Below, one piece after another: positions 5,881-17,403 of a DNA stretch of 32,316 bases (position 1 is its first letter; each line of letters opens with the position of its first letter). Under the pieces are notes generated by a model. It was not told the origin of the DNA and did not search any database. It worked only from the letters and a program-made list of their open reading frames with translations. A program made the translations under genes and the position numbers. Location of the stretch: the NCBI GenBank assembly GCA_014189875.1, contig BJFP01000007.1:1-32316 (forward strand), given 5' to 3'. Origin of the DNA: Verrucomicrobiota bacterium. Lineage in GTDB: Bacteria; Verrucomicrobiota; Verrucomicrobiia; Chthoniobacterales; Chthoniobacteraceae.

Positions 5881-6078
5881 CTCTTATCCAGAGTGGCTGA
5901 GGGTTCTGGCCCTGCGACGCCACGGCAACCGCTTCGGCGAGTTGAGTGATGAGAGTTGAGAGAAAAGCAACGCGCGCAGCGCGCTAGCCGGCCTCTCAAC
6001 TCCTCAACTCTCAACTCCGCCGCAAGGACCAGGTGCCAAATCCAGCTCCGTGCCGCAGGGCGTGGGGACAGATGAGAG
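5881..6078 (+). ncRNA. SAM-I (S-box) riboswitch with an enlarged P3 stem
   Basis: The S-box core is present. P1 is formed by CTCTTATC (5881-5888) and GATGAGAG (6071-6078), pairing over all 8 positions with one G-U. The P2 region has GAGGGTTCTGGCCC and then CGGCAACC. The conserved joining strand is AGGTGCCAAATCCAGC (about 6031-6046). P4 is CCGTGCC/GGCGTGG. SAM binding in this family switches off methionine and SAM biosynthesis genes. Unusually, the P3 loop is replaced by a palindrome (5939-6017), making the aptamer about 198 nt instead of roughly 100-120. P3 base pairs (CTT-CGGCG with CGCCG-AAG, one bulge) lead directly into the inserted hairpin. No U-run follows, so control is more likely translational. 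Confidence 0.9.
5939..6017. repeat. Heptad-armed palindrome B inside the riboswitch (GAGTTGA words)
   Basis: The left arm at 5939-5962 reads GAGTTGA, GTGATGA, GAGTTGA, GAG. The right arm at 5993-6017 is the inverted counterpart (CTCTCAACTCCTCAACTCTC and on). The centre contains a small self-complementary GCGCGC-AGCGCGC stretch. The arms stack on riboswitch stem P3, so the element extends that helix rather than breaking the aptamer. Confidence 0.85.
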
Positions 6079-6139
6079 CGAAGCGGTGATTTGTCGTCAC
6101 CCCTCGCCACTCCGGGAAGAGCTGAAAATCTGCATAGCC

Positions 6140-7411
6140 ATGCAAAAAAACACACCTTCCTACTTCTCGAACCTCAAGTGCCGCGAGTGCGGACGCCTCT
6201 ACCCGAAACAGGCCATCCACGTCTGCGATTTCGACTTCGGCCCCCTCGAGGCCGCGTACGACTACGACGCCATCAAGGCGGTGCTCACGCGCGATCTCAT
6301 CGAGTCGCGCCCGAAGAGCATGTGGCGCTACCGCGAGCTGCTGCCGATTGATGGCGAGCCCACCGTCGGCACGCAGGTCGGCTTCACGCCGCTCGTGAAG
6401 GCGGATCGCCTCGCCGAGAAGCTCGGCATCAAGGCGCTCTACATCAAGAACGACACCGTCAACTACCCCACCCTCTCGTTCAAGGATCGCGTCGTGAGCG
6501 TCGCCCTCAGCCGCGCGAAGGAGCTGGGCTTCAAAGTCGTCGCCTGCGCCTCGACTGGAAACCTCGCAAACTCCGTCGCTGCCAACGCCGCGAGCGCCGG
6601 ACTGAAAAGCTACGTCCTCATCCCCGCCGACCTCGAGCAGGGCAAAGTGCTCGGCTCGCTCGTGTACGGCACGAACGTCATCGGCATCCACGGCCCCTAC
6701 GATCAGGTGAACCGTCTCTGCTCCGAAATCGCCGGCAAATACGGCTGGGGCTTCGTGAACGTGAACCTGCGCCCGTATTACGCCGAAGGCAGCAAGAGCA
6801 TGGGCTTTGAAATCATGGAGCAGCTCGGCTGGCGCATCCCGCGCCACACCGTCGTCCCGATGGCCTCCGGTTCGCTCCTCACGAAAATCCACAAGTCCTA
6901 CGGCGAATTCGCAAAAATTGGCCTCGTGGACGAAGCGCCATTTTCGATCTTCGGCGCACAGGCCACCGGCTGCGCACCGATCGCGCACGCCATGAAAAAA
7001 GGCACCGACATCGTGAAGCCCGTGCCGAAGCCCGACACGATCGCCAAGTCCCTCGCCATCGGCACGCCCGCCGACGGCTACTACGCCATCCACGTCATGC
7101 GCCAGACCGGCGGCACCGCCGAGGACGTGACGGACGATGAAATCGTCGAGGGCATCAAACTCCTCGCCGAGTACGCCGGCATCTTCGCCGAGACCGCCGG
7201 CGGCGTCACCGTCGCCTGCGCAAAGAAGCTCATCGAAAGCGGAAAAATCCCGCGCGACGAGGAAGCCGTCCTCTGCATCACCGGCCACGGCCTGAAGACG
7301 CAGGAAGCCATCGCCGGAAAATGCGGCGAACTGCGCCTCATCAAGCCGAGCCTGCGTGAGTTCGAGGAACAAATCTACCTCCCCGACCAGGCCGTTTCCT
7401 CTCAAACTTAA
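6140..7411 (+). CDS. thrC: Threonine-synthase-family PLP enzyme
   Basis: A 423-residue fold-type II PLP enzyme. It begins with a rubredoxin-like metal-binding stretch (C14, C17, C29: LKCRECGRLYP...HVCDF), as in the archaeal/actinobacterial ThrC branch. K115 in PTLSFKDR is the Schiff-base lysine. The phosphate-binding loop is ACASTGNLANSVAANAA, and the C-terminal ITGHGLKTQEA motif is typical. The family converts O-phosphohomoserine to threonine and phosphate. ATG 6140 lies 61 bases after the riboswitch; the in-frame GTG at 6050 falls inside the aptamer and is rejected. Control by a SAM riboswitch, and the sulfur carrier and metH downstream, are odd for a plain threonine synthase. They raise the possibility of a sulfur-transfer (homocysteine-forming) role on the same substrate. 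Confidence 0.88.
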   Translation: MQKNTPSYFSNLKCRECGRLYPKQAIHVCDFDFGPLEAAYDYDAIKAVLTRDLIESRPKSMWRYRELLPIDGEPTVGTQVGFTPLVKADRLAEKLGIKALYIKNDTVNYPTLSFKDRVVSVALSRAKELGFKVVACASTGNLANSVAANAASAGLKSYVLIPADLEQGKVLGSLVYGTNVIGIHGPYDQVNRLCSEIAGKYGWGFVNVNLRPYYAEGSKSMGFEIMEQLGWRIPRHTVVPMASGSLLTKIHKSYGEFAKIGLVDEAPFSIFGAQATGCAPIAHAMKKGTDIVKPVPKPDTIAKSLAIGTPADGYYAIHVMRQTGGTAEDVTDDEIVEGIKLLAEYAGIFAETAGGVTVACAKKLIESGKIPRDEEAVLCITGHGLKTQEAIAGKCGELRLIKPSLREFEEQIYLPDQAVSSQT

Positions 7412-7550: not shown

Positions 7551-7823
7551 ATGGCCTCCGTCCGCATCCCCACCCCACTCCGCAAACTTACCAACGACCT
7601 CGAAGTCGTCTCCGCCGCCGGCGCGAACGTCGGCGAGCTCATCGCCAATCTCGACCTCGCCTTCCCCGGCCTGCGCGAGCGCATCTGCGACGAACAGGGC
7701 GCCGTCCGCCGCTTCGTGAATATCTTCGTCAGCGACGAGGACATCCGCTTTTTGCAGGAACTAGCCACGCCGCTGAAGGACACTGATGAAGTGAGCATCG
7801 TTCCCGCGATCGCAGGCGGCTAG
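7551..7823 (+). CDS. MoaD/ThiS-family sulfur-carrier protein
   Basis: A 90-residue beta-grasp protein beginning MASVRIPTPLRKLT and ending VSIVPAIAGG. The C-terminal di-glycine is the hallmark of MoaD, ThiS and CysO carriers. An E1-like enzyme adenylates it and converts it to a thiocarboxylate that donates sulfur. FVNIFVSDEDIRFLQELATPL followed by a turn and DEVSIVPA is the usual beta-grasp end. CysO of mycobacteria is the closest described analogue in context: a MoaD-like donor next to a fold-type II PLP enzyme (CysM). Here the PLP partner would be the threonine-synthase homologue. No E1 or JAMM protease gene is in the window, so activation must come from elsewhere. The start is preceded by repeat DNA and lacks an SD site. 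Confidence 0.88.
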   Translation: MASVRIPTPLRKLTNDLEVVSAAGANVGELIANLDLAFPGLRERICDEQGAVRRFVNIFVSDEDIRFLQELATPLKDTDEVSIVPAIAGG

Positions 7824-7839: not shown

Positions 7840-7862
7840 CACCTTTCACGCATTCCGTGAAA

Positions 7863-7916
7863 GTGACTGGTAGCTTGTGATTGGTGACTAGTCACTCTTC
7901 ACCAATCACCAGTCAC
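7863..7916. repeat. Heptad-armed palindrome D (GTGATTG words)
   Basis: The outer arms GTGACTGG (7863-7870) and CCAGTCAC (7909-7916) and the inner arms GTGATTGGTGA (7877-7887) and TCACCAATCAC (7899-7909) are perfect inverted repeats. The left side reads in sevens: GTGACTG, GTAGCTT, GTGATTG, GTGAC. The right side on the opposite strand reads GTGACTG, GTGATTG, GTGAAGA, GTGAC. It lies between the sulfur-carrier and NIL genes. Confidence 0.8.
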
Positions 7917-7967
7917 AACCACGGCTCCCAAAACATTTCCCGGTCAACACGCACCCCACGCACCCAC

Positions 7968-8216
7968 ATGGCAAACGACACATCCCGCCTCTGGCTCATG
8001 TATCCCACCCGGCTCGTCACGCGGCCGATCATCTGGGAACTGTGCAAAAAATTCGAGGTCATCACAAATCTCCGTCAGGCGAGCGTGAACGAGGAAGTCG
8101 GGCTCGTCTGCCTCGAACTCGACGGAGAGCGCGCAGAAATCAAACGCGCCATCGCCTGGCTCGAGGAACTCGGCGTGAAAGTCGAACCCGTCGAGATCAA
8201 CACGATCGAGGGCTGA
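7968..8216 (+). CDS. NIL-domain protein
   Basis: An 82-residue stand-alone ferredoxin-fold (ACT-like) domain. SRLWLMYPTRLVTRPIIWEL...FEVITNLRQASV, the E-x-G-L-V-C-L-E-L strand, and a C-terminal helix and strand (AIAWLEELGVKVEPVEI) match the NIL domain. That domain is otherwise known at the C-terminus of MetN methionine transporters and in ferredoxin fusions linked to homocysteine synthesis. There it binds methionine or serves as a small accessory domain. ATG 7968 was chosen; an upstream in-frame ATG would add repeat-derived residues (from palindrome D). Its position between a sulfur carrier and metH suggests a sulfur amino-acid role, as a sensor or partner; this is inferred. Confidence 0.8.
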   Translation: MANDTSRLWLMYPTRLVTRPIIWELCKKFEVITNLRQASVNEEVGLVCLELDGERAEIKRAIAWLEELGVKVEPVEINTIEG

Positions 8217-8261
8217 TAACGCTTCGCTCACGACTTCGGCAAGTCAGGCGCGAGCATCAGG

Positions 8262-8332
8262 AAAAGTAGTCCACGGCTTTAGCCGGCATCGCGTCTGAAC
8301 GTCATTGTCGGCGAAAGCCGTGGACTACTTTT
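8262..8332. repeat. Perfect 19-bp inverted repeat upstream of metH
   Basis: AAAAGTAGTCCACGGCTTT (8262-8280) and its exact complement AAAGCCGTGGACTACTTTT (8314-8332) flank a 33-base centre. The arms end in A4 and T4, so the transcript hairpin is followed by U residues and could terminate in either direction. It looks like a dispersed palindromic element rather than a heptad array. It separates the NIL gene from metH. Confidence 0.85.
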
Positions 8333-8497
8333 CAAGACCGCGCACCGTTTGTCCGGAGGAATGCTCTGACTCGGGCCGACTGTGGAATTTTCCAAAGCAC
8401 GCGATCAGTGAGTATAAACTCCATCCATCATTGAATCATGATGCGTCAATTTGTTCTTGGAATACTCTGATTTCCGTGCTCTTTTCCCCTCGAAAAT

Positions 8498-11400
8498 ATG
8501 CACCCGCTCGAACAACTCCTCCGCCAGCGTATCGCTATCATTGACGGCGCGATGGGCACCACGATCCGCACGTACGGGATGACGGAGGCGGACGTGCGCG
8601 GCGAACGGTTCAAGGATGCGAAAAAGGACATGCTAAACTGCGGCGACTTTTTCTCGCTCACGCAGCCGAAGATGATCCGCGACATCCACCGCCGCTTCCT
8701 CGAAGCGGGCGCGGACATCATCGAGACAAACACCTTCGGCGTGACCTCGATCGCGCTCAGCGATTTCTTCGTCGAGGATCCGCGCGAGCACGGCGGGCGG
8801 AAGGATCCGGAATTTTTCCAGAAGATCATCGAGGACAAATTCCTCAACGAACTCTCGTGGGAAATGAGCGAGACCTCCGCGCGCCAGTGCCGCGAGGAGG
8901 CCGATCGCGTGGCGAATGAGACTGGGCGGCAGCGCTTCGTCGCCGGCGCGGTCGGACCCATGCAGGTGTCGCTGTGCTTTGCCCCGGACTCGAACGACAC
9001 AAGCTTCCGCCCGTGCACATTTGAGCAGGTGAAGACGGCCTACATGCAGCACATCCGCGGACTGATCGCGGGCGGTTCGGATGTGATTTTGGTGGAGACG
9101 ATTTTCGATTCGCTGAATGCAAAAGCCGCACTGGTCGCGGTTCAGGAAGTCTTTGAAAAGGACGGTATCGTGCTGCCGGTGATGATCTCCGCAGCGGTCG
9201 GGCGCGGCGGTGAGACCCTCGTGTCGGCGCAGAAAGTGGAGGCTTACTGGAATGCGGTGAAGCATCTGAAACCGCTTTCCGTCGGGCTCAACTGCTCGCT
9301 CGGGCCGGACCTGATGCGTCCATTTTTGGCGGAGCTCGCGGAGAAATCCGGCACCTACGTCTCCGCATATCCGAATGCCGGACTGCCGAATCCGCTGACG
9401 CCGACAGGCTTTGATTTGAAGCCGGAAGACATGGCCCGCTACCTCGGTGATTTCGCCGAAAGCGGCATGCTGAACATCGCGGGCGGCTGCTGCGGCAACA
9501 CGCCGGAGCACATCGCCGCAATTGCAAAGGCGGTCGCCGCCAGCAGGCCGCGCGAGATTCGCGAAGAGACGAAATTTTCCACTGGAGCCGCACTGCCGCT
9601 GCGCCTCTCGGGCTCCGAAGCATTCACGCAGCAGGTCGGCAGTTTCCTGATGATCGGTGAGCGCACAAACGTCGCCGGTTCGCCGAAATTTGCGAAGCTC
9701 ATCAAGGAGGACAAATACAAGGAAGCCGTCGCGATTGCGGAGCAGCAGGTGGAGAACGGGGCCAACATCATAGACATCTGCATGGACGAAGGGATGATTG
9801 ATGGCGTCGCCGCGATGACGCGCTTCCTCAACATGCTCAGCGTGGAGCCGGACGTGGCGAAGGTGCCGTTCATGGTGGACTCGTCGAAGTGGGAAGTCAT
9901 CGAGGCGGGACTGAAATGTTTGCAAGGAAAAGGCATCGTGAATTCGATCTCGCTGAAGGCTGGTGAGGAGGAATTCAAAAAGCACGCGCGGCACATTTTG
10001 AAATACGGCGCGGCGGTCGTCGTGATGGCATTCGACGAGCAGGGGCAGGCGGCGACCTACGCGGAAAAAATCCGCATCTGCGAGCGCGCGTACCGCATCC
10101 TCGTGGACGAGATCGGATTCCCATCCGAGGACATCATTTTCGATCCAAACATCCTCACCGTCGGCACGGGCATCGAGGAGCATAACAACTACGCGGTGGA
10201 CTTCATCGAGGCCACACGGTGGATCAAAAAGAACCTGCCGAATGCGAAGGTGAGCGGCGGCGTGTCGAATGTTTCGTTTGGTTTCCGCGGCAACAATCCC
10301 GTGCGCGAGGCGATGCACAGCGCGTTTCTTTTCCACGCGATCGCCGCCGGGATGGACATGGGCATCGTGAATGCCGGGATGCTCGAAGTGTACGAGGAGA
10401 TCGAGCCGGAGCTGAAGGAACTCGTCGAGGACGTGCTGCTGAACCGCCGCCCCGATGCGACGGAGCGCCTGGTGACGCATGGCGAAAAATTGAAGGCCGC
10501 GAGCAGCGGCACGACCGCAGCCGACAAAAAGGTCGAGGAGGAATGGCGCAAGGGAACCGTCGAGCAGCGCCTCTCGCACGCGCTCGTGCGCGGGATCGAT
10601 CTGCACATTGAAGCCGACACCGCCGAGGCGCTCGCGAAGTACGGCAAGCCGCTCACCGTCATCGAAGGCCCGCTCATGGACGGCATGAGCGTCGTCGGCG
10701 ATCTGTTTGGCGCGGGGAAAATGTTTTTACCGCAGGTCGTGAAGTCCGCGCGCGTGATGAAGAAATCCGTCGCGTGGCTGGAGCCGCACATGCAGGCCGA
10801 AAAGCTCGCGATGGCCGCGCGCGGCGAGGCAGTGAAGGCGCAGGGCAAGGTGCTGCTCGCGACCGTGAAAGGCGACGTGCATGACATCGGCAAGAACATC
10901 GTCGGCGTCGTGCTGGCGTGTAACAACTACGAGGTCGTGGACATGGGCGTGATGGTCGCGTGCGACAAGATTTTGGACAAAGCGATCGAGATCGGCGCGG
11001 ACATCATCGGCCTCAGCGGACTCATCACGCCGTCGCTCGACGAGATGACGCACGTCGCGAAGGAAATGAAACGCCGTGGCTTCAAGCAACCGCTGCTCAT
11101 CGGCGGCGCGACGACTTCGCGCGCGCACACGGCGGTGAAAATCTCGCCGCACTACGACGGCCCGGTCGTGCATGTGCTCGATGCTTCGCGCGCCGTGCCG
11201 GTCGTGAGTTCGCTCTTGAGCTCGGATGGCCGGGCGGATTTCGTCGCGAAGAATGCCGTGGATCAGGAGTCGCTCCGACAGCAGCACGCGGGCAGCGCGG
11301 CAAAGCTCGTGAGCATCGAGGAAGCACGGCTGAAGGCGCCAAAGCTTGAGTTCAGCGATCCGCCGCAGCCGGAGTTTTCCGGCGTGCGCGTGCTGGAAAA

Positions 11401-12379
11401 TTTCCCGCTCGCCGAGCTGCGCCCGTTCATTGACTGGACGCCGTTTTTCCACACCTGGGAACTGCGTGGCGTGTATCCCAAGATCCTCGACCACGAAAAA
11501 TACGGCGAGCAGGCGCGCAAAATTTTCGCCGATGCAAATGCGATGCTCGACCAGTTCATCGCCGACGGCTCGCTCACCGCGCGCGCCGTGTACGGCTTTT
11601 TCCCCGCGAATCGCGACGGCGACGATCTCATCGTGTGGACCGACGAGACCCGCACCACCGAGCGCACGCGCCTGCACCACCTCCGGCAGCAAGTCGCGAA
11701 GGACAACGCCAATCCATACCGCTGTCTCGCAGACTTCGTAGCGCCAATCCCTCCCGTAGCCGCCGATATGAATCGGCGGGCTGCTCTCCGCACTGGCGAA
11801 CAGTCCAAGACCGATCATCCCGCGACCGAGAGTGCCCGCGCTTTCACAAGCGCGGCTACGGATCACATCGCGGCCTTCGCCGTCACGACCGGCATCGGGC
11901 TCGATGAGATGGTGAAAAAATTAAAGGCCGAGCACGACGACTACAACGCCATCATGGCCGAAGCCGTCGCGGATCGCCTTGCGGAGGCATTCGCCGAGTG
12001 CCTGCACAAACGCGTGCGCAACGAGTGGGGCTACGGCAAAACCGAGCAGCTCTCGAACGACGATCTCATCCACGAAAAATACCGCGGCATCCGCCCCGCG
12101 CCCGGCTACCCCGCGTGCCCGGACCACACGGAAAAACGCACACTCTGGACGCTGCTCGACGCGGAGAAAAACGCGGGGATCAAGCTCACCGAGAACTTCG
12201 CCATGTGGCCCGGCAGCAGCGTGAGCGGCTTCTACTTTTCGCACCCGGAGTCGCGCTACTTCGCCGTCGGCAAGCTCGGCGCGGATCAACTCGCGGACTA
12301 CGCGAAGCGCAAGGGCATGTCGCTCGCCGAAGCGGAACGCTGGCTCGGCCCGTGGCTGAACTACACACCCAAGACGTAG
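8498..12379 (+). CDS. metH: Cobalamin-dependent methionine synthase
   Basis: A 1293-residue protein with all four MetH modules in order. The homocysteine-binding barrel (1 to about 350) has zinc ligands in VGLNCS and in GGCCGN near 328. The methyltetrahydrofolate/pterin barrel runs from about 365 to 640 ([26 protein letters not shown]). The cobalamin cap and binding domains have DVHDIGKN near 793, where the His replaces the lower cobalt ligand, then [11 protein letters not shown] and [14 protein letters not shown]. The C-terminal AdoMet reactivation domain has [15 protein letters not shown] and [20 protein letters not shown]. It makes methionine from homocysteine and completes the SAM-controlled cluster upstream. 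It is longer than E. coli MetH (1227), partly because of an in-frame palindrome (residues about 1086-1122). The start has no evident SD sequence. Confidence 0.97.
11754..11861. repeat. In-frame palindromic element inside metH
   Basis: The outer inverted repeats CCGTAGCC (11754-11761) and GGCTACGG (11854-11861) enclose two perfect hairpins: CCGCCGAT-atga-ATCGGCGG (11760-11779) and CCGCGCTT-tcac-AAGCGCGG (11836-11855). Total length is 108 bp, exactly 36 codons. The encoded stretch falls between FVAP and AFAVT, where E. coli MetH has only about ten residues. Confidence 0.82.
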
Positions 12380-13605: not shown

Positions 13606-13613
13606 GGGGAAGC

Positions 13614-13687
13614 AGTGCTCAGTTCTCAGTGGTCAGTTCTCAGAAAATGCAATGCCAGCGAAAACTGAGCACTGCGAACTGAGCACT
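13614..13687. repeat. Heptad-armed palindrome G (AGTNCTC words)
   Basis: The left arm at 13614-13636 reads AGTGCTC, AGTTCTC, AGTGGTC, AG. The right arm at 13665-13687 is its inverse with two mismatches in 23. The left array runs on one more unit to about 13643. It lies between purH and pdxJ, just upstream of the pdxJ start, in the path of any purH-pdxJ transcript. Confidence 0.85.
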
Positions 13688-13690
13688 TCT

Positions 13691-15217
13691 TCAGTGCCGG
13701 AAATGCCGCACCCCCGTGCAAATCATCGCCATGTTGCGTTCATTCGCCGCGGCGATCACTTCGGGATCCTTCACCGAACCGCCGGGTTGGATCGCGCAGG
13801 TTGCGCCGGCTTCCGCGGCGGCGATGAGGCCGTCGGGGAATGGGAAAAATGCGTCGCTGCCGACTGCGCTGCCCTTGAGCGAGAGGCCGGCGTCCTTTGC
13901 CTTCCAGATCGCGATGCGGCTGGAATCCACGCGCGACATCTGGCCTGCGCCGATGCCGAGCGTGCGGTCGCTCGCGGCGTACACGATTGCGTTACTCTTC
14001 ACATGCTTCACGACTTTCCATGCGAAGAGCATCGCGGAAAGCTCGGCCGGCGTCGGCTTGCGGGCGGTGACGATCTTGGACTCGATGTCCGTCTCCGGCG
14101 ACATGTCGCGGCCCTGCACGAGCACTCCGCCGACGACGCTGCGGATGATCTGATCGTCCTTCGTCTGCACCGGGCCGAGCTTGCGCATGAGCCGCAGGTT
14201 TTTCTTTTTTTGCAAAAGCGCGCGCGCATCGGCCTCGAACTCCGGCGCGATGATCACCTCGCTGAAAATCTCGCTGATCGCGCGCGCGAGTTCCTCAGTG
14301 ACAGGACGGTTGCAGATGATGATGCCGCCGAACGGTGCCTGCTTATCCGTTGCAAATGCCTTGTCCCACGCCTCGCGCAAGTCCGCGTCGCTGCCGACAC
14401 CGCACGGGTTTGTGTGCTTCAAAATCGCGACGGTCGGCTCCGAAAATTCCTCGATGAGTTCCGCCGCGGCGGTGATGTCCAGGATGTTATTGTACGAAAG
14501 CTCCTTGCCGTGGAGCTTTTCAAAGTGCTCGTCCCACCGCCCGTAGAGCGCGGCAGCCTGGTGCGGATTTTCGCCGTAGCGGAGCTGGTTCACGAGCGGC
14601 TCGCTGATGCTGAATGAAGACGAGCATTCCTTTTCCTTGTTCAGAAAATTCGCGATCGCGCCGTCGTATTTCGACGTGGTGACGAAGACCTTGATGCCCA
14701 GCCGCTCGCGCAGTTGCAGCGTCGTCGCGCCGTCGTTCGCCTTCATCGCGTCAATCACGTCCGCGTAGTCTGCGGGGTCCACCACGACGGTGACGCTACG
14801 GTAGTTCTTCGCCGCGCTGCGCAGCATCGAGGGGCCGCCGATGTCAATCTGCTCGATGGCCTCCTCCAGCGTCACGCCCGGCTTCGCGATCGTGGCCTCG
14901 AACGGGTACAGATTCACGATGACGAGATCGATCGGCAGGATGCCGTGCGCCTTTGCCTGAGTGACATGCTCGGGATTGTCGCGGAGGTGCAGCAGTCCGC
15001 CGTGGACTTTCGGGTGCAGCGTCTTCACGCGGCCGTCCATCATCTCGGGGAAGCCGGTGTATTCGGAGATTTCCGTGACTTTGATCTTCTCCTTTTGCAG
15101 CAGCTTCGCGGTGCCGCCGGTGGAGATGATCTCGACTCCCATTGCCGAGAGTTCTTTTGCAAAGGCCGCGAGGCCGGTCTTGTCCGAAACGGAAATGAGC
15201 GCGCGAGTGATTTTCAT
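13691..15217 (-). CDS. purH: Bifunctional AICAR formyltransferase / IMP cyclohydrolase
   Basis: A 508-residue protein of normal PurH length. The N-terminal MGS-like IMP cyclohydrolase domain (1 to about 195) shows [43 protein letters not shown] and [17 protein letters not shown]. The AICAR formyltransferase domain follows with LRYGENPHQ, the catalytic KHTNPCGVG motif, [11 protein letters not shown] and the closing [18 protein letters not shown]...RHFRH. It performs the last two steps of purine synthesis to IMP using 10-formyl-THF. It is flanked on both sides by heptad-armed palindromes (13614-13687 and 15277-15348). Confidence 0.98.
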
Positions 15218-15276
15218 CGAAGGGCGCGGAGGCTAGCAGCGACGCCCGGTCGGTCAAGAGGGCCGCGGCGGGGATG

Positions 15277-15348
15277 AGTTCTCAGTTCTCAGTTCTCAGT
15301 CGGCGCACACATTGAATCTGAGCACTGGACACTGGGCACTGCGCACTT
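15277..15348. repeat. Heptad-armed palindrome H (AGTTCTC words)
   Basis: The left arm at 15277-15300 is AGTTCTC repeated three times plus AG. The right arm at about 15318-15348, read on the opposite strand, is AGTGCGC, AGTGCCC, AGTGTCC, AGTGCTC, AG. The two share the 7-bp register but not every base. It lies between purH and the prenyltransferase gene and uses nearly the same word as palindrome G. Confidence 0.78.
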
Positions 15349-17270: not shown

Positions 17271-17403
17271 TTCCAAACGTAGAGAGGCAGAGGTGAGCGG
17301 AGAGGATCGCGGAGGGAAAAATGAAACTCCCTGCCCTGCCCGGCGCGGCAACCCGCCTACTCTGCGAAACTCTCAAATCCCCTCTGCCTCTCTGCGTTTG
17401 AAA
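17271..17403. repeat. Palindrome with 23-bp arms upstream of the DUF116 fusion gene
   Basis: 17271-17293 (ends GAGAGGCAGAGG) and 17381-17403 (starts CCTCTGCCTCTC) are inverted repeats with two mismatches in 23. The arms contain a GCAGAG word repeated at 8-bp rather than 7-bp spacing, so membership in the heptad family is uncertain. The roughly 87-base centre is unstructured to the eye. Confidence 0.7.

Follow-up and report, generated by a model that had tools for sequence, protein, structure and literature searches.

The window, a 32,316-nt stretch from the metagenome-assembled draft genome of a lake bacterium of the phylum Verrucomicrobiota (G000, 4.93 Mb), carries a SAM-I riboswitch with an enlarged P3 stem. 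The first gene behind the switch is thrC-like and encodes a PLP-dependent threonine synthase, and ThiS/MoaD-like, NIL-domain and metH genes follow (Table 1), which is the setting expected for a methionine/SAM switch. Between the ThiS-like and NIL-domain genes lies a GTGACTG heptad palindrome (7855-7924), which is retained in the congener G004 and decayed in the congener G003. In G003 (L233), the interval from thrC to the ThiS-like gene holds an additional AGTGCTC-type palindrome that G004 is without.

Table 1. Features of the riboswitch and the genes behind it, in window coordinates
Feature	Position	Strand	Basis
SAM-I (S-box) riboswitch aptamer, enlarged P3	5881..6078	+	cmscan RF00162
P1 5' strand, partner 6071-6078	5881..5888	+	MFE fold, CM alignment
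P2 hairpin, GUGGC 5893-5897 with GCCAC 5919-5923	5893..5923	+	CM alignment, MFE
P3 base 5' strand, GGCAACCGCUUCGGC	5924..5938	+	CM alignment, MFE
Palindrome left arm, GAGTTGA GTGATGA GAGTTGA GAG	5939..5962	+	Sequence read
Palindrome centre, GC-rich, with hairpin CGCGCGCAGCGCGC	5963..5992	+	Fold and sequence
Palindrome right arm, CTCTCAACTCCTCAACTCTCAACTC	5993..6017	+	Sequence read
P3 base 3' strand and conserved AGGUGCC	6018..6037	+	CM alignment, MFE
P4 hairpin	6046..6067	+	MFE
P1 3' strand	6071..6078	+	CM alignment, MFE
thrC-like gene (PLP-dependent threonine synthase)	6140..7411	+	Pfam PALP 1e-65
ThiS/MoaD-like gene	7551..7823	+	Pfam ThiS 1.8e-15
NIL-domain gene	7968..8216 as searched, ATG at 7965	+	Pfam NIL 9.1e-13, ORF list
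metH, cobalamin-dependent methionine synthase	8498..12379	+	Pfam Met_synt_B12 1.5e-120, S-methyl_trans, Pterin_bind

In the cmscan search, the aptamer matched RF00162 at 65.5 bits (E 2.7e-13) against a gathering score of 44.4, and it is the sole SAM match of the 4.93-Mb genome. Model positions 1-108 were covered end to end with a 95-nt stretch of P3 left unaligned, and the CM alignment contained two non-standard pairs in the part shown. The score passes the cut-off, the four-helix fold P1-P4 with its conserved core is present and methionine/SAM-related genes lie downstream; the S-box identity and complete core proposed in an earlier sequence-only reading therefore held. When the whole aptamer was folded, P1, P2 and P4 were kept in the MFE structure and P3 formed one continuous stem with the palindrome, a prediction that agrees with the earlier view that the P3 pairs run into the palindrome stem and that the fold is likely kept. 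On the 3' side of the aptamer, CGCCACTC at window 6100-6115 is conserved in palindrome carriers and non-carriers. It may serve as the partner of the P2 5' strand within the expression platform, and is the exact complement of that strand in only 17 of 66 leaders.

The tip of P3 is replaced by a palindrome of 79 nt (5939-6017), which runs from GAGTTGAG to CTCAACTC and consists of GAGTTGAGTGATGAGAGTTGAGAG, AAAAGCAACGCGCGCAGCGCGCTAGCCGGC and CTCTCAACTCCTCAACTCTCAACTC in this order. Its length and its 7-bp words are as first described, with the qualification that the mirroring is imperfect: the arms are tandem heptads (GAGTTGA), with a deviant unit, GTGATGA, on the left and an 8-base step on the right. 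The predicted folding energy of the P3 stretch is -50 kcal/mol, compared with -33.8 +/- 3.7 in dinucleotide shuffles (z -4.4; none of 200 shuffles as good).

Of 57 related genomes, 40 gave SAM-I matches; together with about 75 thrC leaders taken from named GTDB contigs, these formed the comparison set. P3 usually measured 19 to 67 nt, with one at 90 nt, and only five of the thrC leaders had a heptad palindrome in P3. Palindromes of AGTTGAG units were found in G000, G003, G002 and G006, all of one genus, and a 109-nt P3 of GGCGGAA units was found in G031 of another genus. Arrays of AAGGCGGAAGGCGG, the word of the G031 insert, are very numerous in G047 (67) and G054 (29) of the same order. The congeners G001, G004, G005, G007 and G008 have a short P3 of 21 to 23 nt. 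Since close relatives are without it, the long P3 is not an ancient conserved variant, a result in line with the sequence-only reading. The same reading held P3 to be the one place where such a repeat can be tolerated, and this was not borne out, as P4 length also varies across the relatives.

Among the five palindrome-bearing leaders, P1, P2, the P3 base and P4 were intact in four of the predicted folds; the MFE of the G003 leader is not the standard aptamer fold. An assembly artefact might be suspected in a draft of 746 contigs with 6 percent contamination. However, inserts of differing sequence occupy the same loop in four more metagenome-assembled genomes that differ in GenBank accession prefix and isolate name, and an artefact is highly improbable.

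Outside the genus, G033 and G020 of a neighbouring genus have a short P3, within the range of 21 to 25 nt (an ordinary one of 25 nt in G033, GCTCGCTACGCAAGTAGCGGGGACC). Alignment of the G031, G033 and G020 leaders shows hardly any difference apart from the insert; the basal P3 pairs are retained, and the P3 base shows a paired change from GCTCG/CGGGG to GCTTG/CAGGG. In a phylogeny of thrC, a single gene whose tree may differ from the species tree, G031 and the empty G033 are sisters (95/94). G000, G003 and the empty G004 group together (99/99) with a weak G003-G004 fork, and G002 and G006 are sisters in a separate clade with the empty G008 and G001/G005/G007. The fewest changes that parsimony would require are four on the tree as drawn, or three without the weak G003-G004 fork. 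Judged from these leaders, it seems certain that P3 was filled at least twice, once in the genus and once in G031, given that the two cases differ in word as well as in lineage.

Within the genus, one old insertion at its base might have been inherited by G000, G003, G002 and G006 and lost in G004, G008 and G001/G005/G007, leaving G031 alone as independent. The inserts have their GTTGAGNGATGAG start and GCGC-rich centre in common, the unusual second unit (GATGA) that AGTTGAG inserts have in both clades of the genus would likewise be explained, and palindromes are prone to deletion. Nevertheless, a single clade of the four carriers was rejected on the thrC tree (p-AU 1.7e-7), and therefore three losses would be required, each yielding a neat short hairpin. 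Furthermore, the GCGCAAGC tips of G001 and G008 equal those of the outgroups G014 and G020. Nor is the GTTGAGNGATGAG start confined to P3: G000 has it at six further places and G006 at seven, and it is therefore a recurrent variant of the class. Taken together, a single old insertion seems doubtful, with something to be said for it.

The words of the insert are widespread in its own genome. In a repeat census of 1.03 of the 4.93 Mb (21 percent), strict tandem segments numbered 94 at period 7, 18 at period 6 and 5 at period 8. Among 150 period-7 segments found with a laxer search, 105 had an inverted partner within 200 nt, compared with 2 in the reversed-sequence control. After merging, 64 heptad-armed palindromes were counted in this area against none in a second-order Markov-simulated genome, and each of the remaining periods between 5 and 12 gave 0 to 9 palindromic elements. 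If the surveyed sample is typical, the whole genome is estimated to hold about 300 heptad palindromes. The main words are AGTGCTC, AGTTGAG, GGCGTTT, GGCGTTG, GGACGTT and GTGACTG. A conserved REP-like centre, GCCCCGCGCAGCGGC...GCCTGCGGCGGGCC, occurs in both orientations, often inside palindromes of GGCGTTT and GGCGTTG. Other repeats of the window include a GTTTGGC heptad palindrome at 2238-2392, enclosing a REP-like double hairpin (GCCCCGCGCAGCGGC...) whose centre recurs genome-wide in both orientations, another CTCAGTT palindrome at 15270-15347, an octad-like inverted repeat at 17271-17403 (CTCTGCC TCTCTGCG), and a 28-nt inverted repeat at 8261-8333 (AAAAGTAGTCCACGGCTTTAGCC...) with a GTAG-like tag, which is likely a REP.

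The riboswitch insert is one of 21 distinct elements of the AGTTGAG class, and its heptad arms are inverted as they are at many other sites. Its layout, GTTGAGAG(G)AAAA...CCTCTCAAC, is common to many dispersed AGTTGAG copies. The inner junction GTTGAGAGGAAAA...CCTCTCAAC is frequent, not universal, among the elements of the class, and that of the insert, GTTGAGAGAAAA...GGCCTCTCAAC, is one G short of it. These data bear on the possibility that the P3 hairpin grew in place in 7-nt steps, by replication slippage and template switching, with nothing arriving. Such growth would suit the tandem heptads, the unequal arm lengths and unit numbers, and the arms of some elements that have been homogenised to different words (AACGTCC x4-5 versus AACGCCC x5). 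As a general rule, separate homogenisation of the two arms was unsupported, since among 43 pairs 19 were closer within arms and 22 between arms. Growth in place also does not sit well with identical words that recur at dozens of unrelated loci of a single genome and are nearly missing from congeners, with inner junctions common to the class, or with P3 tips of empty relatives that contain no AGTTGAG seed. We consider it unlikely.

The exact AGTTGAG doublet AGTTGAGAGTTGAG occurs at 29 places genome-wide in G000, at 39 in G003, at 39 in G006 and at 10 in G002, all of which carry the insert, and at 0 to 2 in the five short-P3 congeners. The association between repeat richness and P3 insert gives a Fisher p of 0.008 if the genomes are taken as independent, and they are few and related. 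A reversed-pattern control is useless for AGTTGAG, as reversing this word merely yields one of its rotations. In the short-P3 congener G004, eight heptad palindromes of other words were found per 1.08 Mb, and several G000 elements face empty sites there. Two elements are common to both genomes, namely one of AGTTGAG and the GTGACTG palindrome behind the ThiS-like gene. The intergenic slot at 13608-13692 holds a palindrome in both genomes, between the same flanks, made of CTCAGTT units in G000 and of GTGACTGG units in G004 (L316).

The sequence-only reading had called the insert a mobile or expanding repeat. Its membership of a dispersed family was confirmed; movement as such was not, and a dispersed repeat that grows and shrinks would fit equally well. 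Neither a transposase nor a target-site duplication could be linked to the elements; empty sites were compared by eye, and flank divergence blurred the junctions. The GTAG/CGTC tag is absent at the insert, whose ends are those given above. Y1_Tnp genes are present in 10 of 10 genomes of the genus, with nine matches in G000. As a driver, Y1_Tnp copy number was rejected as too weak, with 9, 9, 11 and 6 in the carriers versus 2 to 7 elsewhere.

Based on these results, we propose, with a probability of roughly 0.8, that a dispersed AGTTGAG palindrome came into the P3 tip of a switch that is probably functional, where it is tolerated and not needed. A copy of an AGTTGAG-class palindrome that has become numerous in the lineage would have entered the P3 tip ahead of thrC, taking the place of the ordinary tip (~12 nt), with the basal P3 pairs staying. 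The arrival would be the copying of a dispersed repeat, after which the arms would have gained and lost 7-nt units. Because the arms of the insert are complementary, its RNA would fold as a rod that prolongs P3, so that P1, P2, P4 and the SAM pocket could form as before. In the SAM-I structure, distal P3 is situated away from the SAM pocket, and the switch is for this reason proposed to be still working; judged from folding and conservation, the SAM response is most likely retained with the long P3.

The long stem might instead have been selected for, tuning the switch by changing how fast the RNA folds, how stable it is or which proteins it binds. Pairing has been preserved though the arms diverged, and P3 is filled oftener than a uniform-landing estimate would have it: 0.03 to 0.14 P3-tip hits would be expected over 5 to 10 repeat-rich genomes and 2 to 4 are seen, in a rough, post hoc calculation that assumes 11 percent non-coding DNA and ignores survival. 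There are hints that the P3 loop is favoured or unusually tolerant. However, complementarity is inherent to the repeat and needs no selection, most relatives are without a long stem, and tolerance suffices for survival of the insert; selection for the stem thus seems rather improbable.

Other structured RNAs were searched for similar inserts. RNase P RNA from 30 relatives (the G000 copy excluded) and TPP riboswitches from 8 congeners contained no period-7 array, and Rfam scans of 20 AGTTGAG-array loci and 140 kb of genome revealed no further palindrome-struck riboswitch. In these scans, one TPP riboswitch adjoins an array that lies outside the riboswitch. An array at the end of a cobalamin riboswitch in G000/G003 (AGCCAGAAGCCAGA) is mostly core sequence and was hence rejected as an insert. 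In our searches, which covered the open literature, we came across no earlier description of a dispersed repeat within a riboswitch aptamer.

Barrick and Breaker (2007; PMC2258182) described riboswitches in which particular positions accept long insertions that form stems and are not conserved, and the P3 insert of G000 is one such variable insertion. What differs is that its source is seen here, a dispersed heptad family with empty and refilled loops in relatives. In the group I intron of tRNA-Leu(UAA) of Nostoc, the P6b stem invariably takes its units from one of two 7-nt motifs, which have been repeatedly swapped (PMC4476775). Both cases have a stem of complementary 7-nt repeats, two word classes replacing each other at one place and 7-nt indels. 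The words TDNGATT and NNTGAGT of Nostoc, however, mismatch GAGTTGA and GGCGGAA in all rotations, and the host there is an intron, whereas here it is a riboswitch in another phylum with some relatives repeat-free; we do not claim membership of that family. Rickettsia palindromic elements are present in tmRNA and RNase P RNA (PMC2229807), and likewise represent a dispersed palindrome of about 100 nt in structured RNA genes with no evident harm. Those elements measure 105-146 bp, whereas here the heptad architecture is common and the words vary by class and genome, and the comparison concerns the mode of insertion alone.

Genome-wide tandem heptamers, mostly intergenic as here, have been described in Xanthomonas and Nostoc (PMC4692102), in Beggiatoaceae (TAACTGA; PMC4679880) and in Geobacter (GGGACCG; PMC2700814). 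By description those are mainly direct arrays of one word, in contrast with the several words and mostly inverted pairs found here. REP/RAYT systems (PMC3733652) also consist of dispersed intergenic palindromes, and the presence of Y1_Tnp throughout the genus is a further likeness. Unlike REPs, the insert is without the GTAG/CGTC tag, its arms are tandem heptads, and no link to a Y1_Tnp gene was established.

More speculatively, the heptad palindromes might be a selfish element defined by its architecture, in which the word is changeable and the form and the favoured slots persist, through a hairpin-copying process that prefers hairpin tips. P3 would then be one slot that was filled independently with different words, and the slot at 13608-13692, where G000 and G004 have different words, would be a second such case. 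We regard this as a tentative idea that is probably not correct. The census itself draws attention to inverted heptad arrays of several words, a type of repeat that has been little described and whose copy numbers are very unequal among congeners. Long variable insertions are common in riboswitches and their origin is seldom visible, whereas here the donor family, the empty sites, the independent refilling with another word and the lineage-specific amplification are all visible. This opens the question of how a repeat enters a regulatory RNA without destroying it, and of what effect a long P3 rod has on the switch.
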